Assembly (NCBI GenBank): GCA_900170005.1
Contig: LT827128.1
Coordinates: 3,406,168 to 3,470,167 of the forward strand
DNA: 64,000 nt
Source: Gordonibacter massiliensis (ex Traore et al. 2017)
GTDB lineage: Bacteria > Actinomycetota > Coriobacteriia > Coriobacteriales > Eggerthellaceae
Direction of reading: 5' to 3'
Shown here: positions 22,711-43,394 of the stretch, piece after piece
Layout of the letters: the number at the start of each line of letters is the position of its first letter
Numbering within the stretch: the stretch's first letter is position 1
Notes under the pieces: generated by a model
What the model was told of the DNA's origin: nothing
What the model saw: the letters and a program-made list of their open reading frames with translations, nothing else
The model's database searches: none
Program-made: the position numbers and the translations under genes

Positions 22711-23043
22711 ATGGAAACCTACTACAACCCGGAGGACCTCGACAAGTTCTCGACCATGGGCGAGGAAGCCCCCGAGCTTTGGGATTTGTACATGGCCTAC
22801 TACGGCAAGGTGTTCGCCGAGGGCGCGCTCACGGCGCGCGAGAAGGCGATCGTCGCGCTGGCGGTGGCGGCGGCCGTGCAGTGCCCGTACTGCATCGACT
22901 CCTACACGCAGTCGTGCTTGGAGAAAGGCGTGACCGAGGAGCAGATGACCGAGGCCATCCACGTGGCGAACGCCATCCGCGGCGGCGCGGCGCTCGTGCA
23001 CGGCGTGCAGATGAAGAACGTGGTCAAGCAGCTGGAAATGTAG
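22711..23043 (+). CDS. AhpD/CMD-like protein, arsenosugar-associated type
   Basis: 110 aa, carboxymuconolactone decarboxylase/AhpD fold. It has the redox pair C58-P-Y-C61 and the helix that follows in AhpD (IDSYTQSCLEKGVTEEQMTEAIHVANAIRGGAA). It ends 2 nt before the radical SAM gene arsS. The family commonly found beside ArsS is annotated as an arsenosugar-associated peroxidase-like protein. Proposed role: thiol-redox partner in the same pathway (context). Confidence 0.8.
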   Translation: METYYNPEDLDKFSTMGEEAPELWDLYMAYYGKVFAEGALTAREKAIVALAVAAAVQCPYCIDSYTQSCLEKGVTEEQMTEAIHVANAIRGGAALVHGVQMKNVVKQLEM

Positions 23044-23045
23044 CC

Positions 23046-24050
23046 ATGCCCGCAACCGACGAACAAGCCCAAGCCGTCATGGACTCGTTCCCGCCGTTCT
23101 TCGAGCGGACGGACGAGGACACGCGCCGCACGCACGAGCGGCTCGACGTGCTGCAGGTGAACGTGGGACGCCTGTGCAACCTGGCGTGCCGCCACTGCCA
23201 CATGGACGCGGGCCCGAACCGCACCGAGGTCATGGCACGCGACACCCTGCAGGCGTGCTTGGACGTGGCCGCGGGCCGCGGCTTCAAGACGCTCGACGTG
23301 ACGGGCGGCGCTCCCGAGATGAATCCCGATTTCGAGTGGTTCGTGCGCGAGGCCGCCGCGCGCGGCCTGGACGTCATCGTGCGCTCGAACCTCGTCGTGA
23401 TGCTGGACGAGCCGTACCGCCACTTGCCCGAAGTGCTGGCCGAGCTGGGCGCGACGGTGTTCGCCTCGCTGCCGCACTACACGGCGAAGCCCGTGGAGAA
23501 GCAGCGCGGCGCGCACACGTTCGACGGGGTCATAGCCATGCTGCAGAGGCTGAACGCGCTGGGCTACGGGCGCGCCGAGGGCGCGAACGAGGACGGGCTC
23601 GTGCTCAATTTGGTGTTCAACCCGAGCGGCGCGTTCCTTCCGCCCGACCAGGAGGCCCTTGAGAAGGAGTACCGGGCCAAGCTCGCCGAGGACTACGGCA
23701 TCGTGTTCGACCACGTGTTCGCCATCGCGAACAACCCGCTGGGGCGCTTCGGGAACCTGCTGCACAAAACCGGCAACCTGGAACGCTACATGGGCAGGCT
23801 CGTGAACGCGTTCAATCCCGATACCGTGCCGGTCATGATGTGCCGCAGCCAGCTGTCGGTGGGTTGGGACGGCGCGCTGTACGACTGCGACTTCAACCAA
23901 GCGGCCGGCCTTCCGTGCAAAAACGGCCTGACCATCGCGGAGCTGGCGGCCGATCCCGCGCTGCCGCTGGCGCGCGACATAGCGTTCGGCAACCACTGCT
24001 ACGCCTGCACCGCCGGCGCCGGCAGCAGTTGAGGCGGCTCCACGGCGTAG
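23046..24050 (+). CDS. arsS: Radical SAM protein ArsS, selenocysteine-containing
   Basis: 334 aa if TGA 24030-24032 is read as selenocysteine (residue 329), ending at TAG 24048-24050; 328 aa if it is a stop. Radical SAM cluster cysteines C44-x3-C48-x2-C51 (CNLACRHC). The C-terminus reads CYACTAGAGSS then the TGA codon then GGSTA, matching the ACTAG-x-GSS-[Cys or Sec]-x-G tail of the rSAM/SeCys family. A SECIS-type hairpin starts 11 nt after the TGA. ArsS builds the deoxyadenosyl-arsenic bond of arsenosugar precursors in characterised members. It is coupled to the AhpD-like gene. An automatic annotation would truncate it. Confidence 0.85.
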
Positions 24051-24059
24051 GTCTACGCC
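24030..24059 (+). promoter_or_regulatory. Bacterial SECIS element for ArsS
   Basis: TGA at 24030-24032, 11-nt spacer, then stem GGCGT (24044-24048) and ACGCC (24055-24059) with apical loop AGGTCT. The loop and the 11-nt spacing are the same as I recall for the E. coli fdhF SECIS, where SelB binds. The true stop TAG falls inside this hairpin. Confidence 0.8.
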
Positions 24060-42674: not shown

Positions 42675-43394
42675 ATGCAGGCGGACAAGCCGATCGACGA
42701 GGAGAGCCTGAGGGCGTACTACGAGCAGCTTCCCAACGAATACGGGTTCGCGAGCCAGTGCAAGATGACGCTCTTGGGCGACATCAAGGGGAAGCGCGTG
42801 CTCGACCTCGATTGCCGTAGGGGCAAGGGCGTCGTCAAGCTGTCCGACTACGTGGGCGCCCGCGGACGCGTGGTGGGGGTCGATCCGACGCCCGAGTGGA
42901 TAGAGATCGCCCGCTCCTACCAAGACGACGCATGGCGCCGCAACGGGCTGCCCGAGAACAACATGGAATACCTCGTGGCCTATCCGGAGGACCTTGCGGC
43001 GGCCGGGCTTGAGGACGGCGCGTTCGACCTGGTGTTCGCCAACAGCAGCGTGAACGTGGACTACTGCCCCGAGGGGGTGTTCGCCGAGGCGTTCCGCGTG
43101 CTCAGGCCCGGCGGCGTGCTGGTGTACGACGGCGTGGTGGCGGCCGGGGCGCGCGACGCGGACACGGTGGCCCGCGCGCGGGCGCTTGGCAACGCCGTGC
43201 AGGCCGCGTTCGCGCGCGAGGAGTTCGAGGGCATCATGGCCCGCATCGGGTTCGAGAAGCCCGAGTACTACGAGGAATCGGACGTGCGGCCCGAGACGGG
43301 CTACCAGACAGGATGCGAGGTGCCGGTGGCCGAGAGCGACGAGGACGTGCGGTTCGTGAAGACCACGGCGCGCATCTACAAGCCGCGCCGCTAG
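42675..43394 (+). CDS. SAM-dependent methyltransferase
   Basis: 239 aa, GGAGGTGGAG before the ATG. Motif I is VLDLDCRRGKG (the usual GxGxG is altered), the acidic strand is RVVGVDP, and FRVLRPGGVLVYDGV is motif III. The region FDLVFANSSVNVDYC and the spacing recall ArsM-type arsenite methyltransferases, but the catalytic NCV cysteine of ArsM is replaced by Ser, so arsenic methylation is doubtful. Starts 27 nt after the trigger-factor-like gene. Substrate unknown. Confidence 0.75.
   Translation: MQADKPIDEESLRAYYEQLPNEYGFASQCKMTLLGDIKGKRVLDLDCRRGKGVVKLSDYVGARGRVVGVDPTPEWIEIARSYQDDAWRRNGLPENNMEYLVAYPEDLAAAGLEDGAFDLVFANSSVNVDYCPEGVFAEAFRVLRPGGVLVYDGVVAAGARDADTVARARALGNAVQAAFAREEFEGIMARIGFEKPEYYEESDVRPETGYQTGCEVPVAESDEDVRFVKTTARIYKPRR

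Follow-up and report, generated by a model that had tools for sequence, protein, structure and literature searches.

An arsS-family gene of Gordonibacter with an in-frame TGA predicted to encode selenocysteine

The arsS gene, its read-through C-terminus and its neighbors

The window (the whole 64,000-nucleotide stretch of Gordonibacter DNA that was analyzed) carries an arsS gene with an in-frame TGA near its 3' end, an AhpD-like gene immediately upstream and a hairpin that spans the end of the coding sequence. The features, and the evidence on which each assignment is based, are:

22711-23043, + strand: AhpD-like, peroxidase-like partner, 2 nt upstream of arsS (TIGR04169, 192 bits, cut-off 120)
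23046-24050, + strand: predicted ArsS-type radical SAM selenoprotein of 334 aa, UGA = Sec329 (TIGR04167, Radical_SAM and DUF3641, translation)
24030-24032, + strand: in-frame TGA, predicted Sec329 codon (Cys/Sec column, host Sec machinery)
24044-24059, + strand: predicted bacterial SECIS hairpin, GGCGT-AGGTCT-ACGCC (motif, same-offset conservation, compensatory changes)
24048-24050, + strand: TAG, predicted true stop, inside the hairpin (GG-x-T-A/E-stop tail common to most Sec and Cys members)

The conventional ORF spans positions 23046-24032 and terminates at the TGA at 24030-24032. A first-pass annotation had proposed that this TGA is followed by Sec-Gly-Gly-Ser-Thr-Ala and then by TAG, and all of these elements are found in the sequence: translation past the TGA gives Sec329-GGSTA and then the TAG at 24048-24050, and the read-through C-terminus is ...NHCYACTAGAGSS-Sec-GGSTA. 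A standard gene caller ends the ORF at the TGA and, as had been pointed out, cuts the protein short of the Cys/Sec residue. The placement of the TAG within the hairpin also holds, the TAG lying at the stem-loop junction; the end coordinate of 24059 given for the gene is the end of the hairpin, and the read-through ORF ends at 24050.

By sequence, the protein is a clear member of TIGR04167 (NCBIfam; full name, arsenosugar biosynthesis radical SAM (seleno)protein ArsS), which it matches over its full length with a score of 399 bits against a curated cut-off of 300. The protein contains a Radical_SAM domain and a DUF3641 domain that constitutes its C-terminal half, has the radical SAM CxxxCxxC motif at C44, C48, and C51, all of them invariant in the alignment, and has a GSSU motif close to its C-terminus. 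The AhpD-like neighbor, which had been said to fit the arsenosugar pathway, belongs to TIGR04169, the named usual partner of the ArsS family, and 95 of the 110 loci fetched have a homologue of it in the vicinity of arsS. There is no arsM gene beside the window arsS.

Other ArsS-type and ArsM-like genes are present in the genome. In one ORF (L141:1138-3219; C1 ~278137-280218), an ArsM-like methyltransferase is fused with a second copy of ArsS, in which Cys occupies the Sec position (GSSCGG); this ORF, which contains the best ArsM-like domain in the genome, with scores below the curated cut-off, is preceded by a gene (L141:11-1108) whose product looks like a GTP-binding CobW-type protein. A third ArsS copy (L142:1237-3249; C1 ~3697236-3699248) is Cys-type and has an N-terminal extension of ~350 residues without a Pfam match at E 0.001. 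Within the window, a methyltransferase gene at 42786-43388 is weakly similar to arsenite methyltransferase (68.6 bits, cut-off 263).

The hairpin downstream of the TGA and the host Sec machinery

The hairpin is separated from the TGA by an 11-nt spacer, GGCGGCTCCAC, and comprises GGCGT (24044-24048), the loop AGGTCT (24049-24054), and ACGCC (24055-24059), precisely the stem, loop, and spacing that had been claimed. Checked against published bacterial SECIS rules, which specify a loop of 3-9 nt, a stem of 4-16 bp, a G among the first two loop nucleotides, a distance of 16-37 nt from the UGA, and an MFE of -7.5 or lower, the sequence downstream of TGA 24030 conforms in loop size, stem length, G position, spacing, and MFE. 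In this GC-rich stretch the MFE of the hairpin, -13.2 kcal/mol, is no better than that of shuffles (z 0.05), and a permissive bacterial SECIS rule that sets no limit on energy is satisfied by 1034 of the window's 1283 TGAs. Because the fold energy is ordinary and the permissive rule matches most TGAs, what carries weight is that the motif is exact and that it is conserved. Counting both strands, the window has 1283 TGA triplets; only at the ArsS site does AGGTCT follow 14-20 nt past the TGA within a stem of 5 bp or more. The pattern TGA-N16-AGGTCT occurs seven times in the whole 3.95 Mb genome; the six other sites were rejected as SECIS elements, the stem around the loop being 2 bp or less at each. 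A search of Rfam at gathering thresholds yielded no match in the window.

The first-pass annotation had implied that the host contains selA, selB, selC, and selD, and all four are found in the complete 3.95 Mb Gordonibacter genome. The genes selA (531 bits), selB (346 bits), and tRNA-Sec (70.6 bits) are contiguous at C1:1199641-1203370, the tRNA being identified by ARAGORN as tRNA-SeC with anticodon tca, and selD (353 bits) is located at C1:1192151, ~6.5 kb away. We conclude that the host has the equipment with which it can make selenoproteins. The host selD (L060:2152-3108; C1:1192151-1193107) carries an in-frame TGA of its own (SKGGU-AAKWGPG), and selD itself therefore looks like a selenoprotein.

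Sec insertion by SelB at a hairpin is an established bacterial mechanism. According to this mechanism, SelB carrying Sec-tRNA(Sec) would bind the hairpin just downstream of UGA 329, UGA 329 would be translated as Sec, and termination would occur six codons on, at the TAG.

Sec and Cys across the ArsS family

Alignment of the C-terminus with the family shows Cys or Sec after GSS in 42 of 42 proteins, and members with neither residue at this position, which the first-pass annotation had named as evidence that would count against a selenoprotein, are absent. Position 329 is thus Cys or UGA in every protein of the alignment, in which the aligner writes Sec as Cys, and every aligned member without UGA has Cys there. 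Where the window has TGA, the codon of Cys-type relatives is TGC or TGT, and the GG-x-T-A tail is maintained downstream of the TGA just as it is downstream of Cys codons. The same-genus genomes G088 and G153 keep the TGA, as do two named Gordonibacter records and divergent members of the Eggerthellales. Among named relatives, the nearest are Gordonibacter sp. 28C, with 93% identity across the stretch that matched, and G. pamelaeae (89%). A same-offset hairpin, for which we required a stem of 5 bp or more, a loop at the offset seen in the window, and a G among the first two loop nucleotides, is present in 14 of 19 distinct UGA members vs. 2 of 81 distinct Cys members, and the remaining 5 of the 19 distinct UGA members have no hairpin at the ArsS offset. 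Within the UGA set the stem covaries, being GGCGTA/TACGCC in the window, GGCTTA/TAAGCC in L047, GGCCTA/TAGGCC in L131, and CGCGTA/TACGCG in L051; in L047 and L131 the 5' arm differs at the wobble position of an Ala codon, and the 3' arm has the matching change beyond the stop codon. In the other Gordonibacter records, the 21 nt from TGA to TAG are unchanged, the loop is shorter (AGUUU), and the closing stem pair is U-G.

On a protein tree built without column 329, the Sec and Cys states require 6 changes, at least 5 of them forced by well-supported branches, as compared with a mean of ~12 for shuffled labels. The gene selA is present in 7 of 7 related UGA-type genomes vs. 3 of 11 Cys-type genomes; with the window genome counted as an eighth UGA-type genome, a one-sided Fisher test, calculated by hand and ignoring relatedness, gives ~0.002. 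The comparative evidence is, on the sequences compared, the strongest part of the case for Sec.

UGA-type ArsS proteins also occur in Bacillota, in Lachnospiraceae and a Eubacteriales relative (L105, L120, L139), where candidate SECIS hairpins are located further downstream; those in L105 and L139 have the form GTTCC-GTx-GGAAC, with a loop unlike the AGGUCU form of Eggerthellales.

Alternative readings, proposed role and relation to known systems

The observation that the arsS ORF continues through an in-frame TGA is confirmed, and its interpretation as a selenoprotein gene is supported by motif, conservation, and host Sec genes; we consider it very probable that UGA 329 is read as Sec in an ArsS-family enzyme. 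One alternative on the coding side, that translation simply ends at the TGA and the enzyme functions in the absence of the final six residues, is what a gene caller would report and is in keeping with the unremarkable fold energy, but it does not account for the invariant Cys at column 329 of the non-UGA members, the coding tail preserved past the TGA, the covariation of the hairpin, or the presence of selA in every UGA-type genome examined, and we regard it as highly improbable. A sequencing error or recent nonsense mutation of a Cys codon would fit the TGC or TGT of Cys-type relatives at the same place, but is refuted by independent genomes with the same TGA, which is found in the other two genomes of the genus, in two named records of Gordonibacter, and in ten or more additional distinct sequences from the class. 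The clustering of Sec/Cys switches on the tree also counts against an error or recent mutation, the probability of which we put close to zero.

A different alternative, compatible with Sec insertion and differing in substrate only, is that the protein, a Sec-containing relative of ArsS, has a non-arsenic substrate. The arsenosugar role of the window operon is one that we infer from the family name, the label coming from the family model only; no arsM adjoins the window arsS, and the genome has its ArsM-like domain in a fusion with another ArsS paralogue, of Cys type, at a separate locus. The score well above the equivalog cut-off and the adjacent AhpD-like family partner argue against a non-arsenic substrate, which we consider a real but minority possibility.

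An AlphaFold model of ArsS has a mean pLDDT of 92.7 and is confident to ~residue 320, but it is unsure in the Sec-bearing tail, where the mean pLDDT falls to 64 over residues 321-330 and to 42 over the final four residues. Foldseek matches are to generic radical SAM folds (e.g., SkfB, BlsE, SuiB, and MoaA), several of which are radical SAM enzymes with SPASM or twitch domains; a PDB sequence search with ArsS gave no hit besides a distant radical SAM protein. The Cys residues C266, C281, C318, and C321 of the C-terminal half are invariant in the alignment, and for this reason the role that we prefer involves an auxiliary iron-sulfur cluster. Sec329 would do the job of the invariant Cys of the relatives, most likely as a ligand of this putative cluster or as a redox or arsenic-binding group beside it. 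Arsenic chemistry is known for ArsS, and the enzyme would join the SAM-derived 5'-deoxyadenosyl group to methylated arsenic. It is unlikely, in our estimate, that the Sec-type ArsS and its AhpD-like partner have an arsenic or selenium substrate that differs from that of the two Cys-type paralogues in the genome; if true, organoarsenic chemistry would gain a new branch, and in a gut bacterium.

TIGR04167 already figures among the selenoprotein families of a published selenoproteome review, where it is given a GxxU motif and the example AAR34688.1 (PMC13188914), and it is also listed in a second such review (PMC9312934). In the open literature, we found these two selenoproteome reviews and no paper that joins ArsS with selenoproteins, radical SAM and selenocysteine, or ArsM. 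Since the reviews list TIGR04167, the ArsS family, including its Sec form, is already known, and the window case is less novel than first thought. The window ArsS leaves knowledge of selenoprotein families unchanged; what it provides is a corrected C-terminus for a conserved enzyme of human gut bacteria that is otherwise cut short at an invariant Cys/Sec residue, and a natural series of Sec/Cys switches with SECIS covariation, suited to studying why some lineages keep selenium.

In its 11-nt spacing, AGGUCU loop, and short GC-rich upper stem, the hairpin resembles the E. coli fdhF SECIS, from which it differs in having no bulged U in the stem and in extending past the stop codon. The Cys-type ArsS proteins of Adlercreutzia, Clostridium, Lachnospiraceae, and others are like the window protein in sequence (~49-61% identity), C-terminal motif, and upstream AhpD-like gene, but have a Cys codon at 329 and only rarely a hairpin at the SECIS offset (2 of 81). 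The window ArsS shares with TIGR04167 the full-length match, CxxxCxxC motif, DUF3641 half, GSSU motif, and AhpD-like partner, and is distinguished, in no respect that amounts to a difference in kind, as a Gordonibacter member with its true stop inside the SECIS hairpin.
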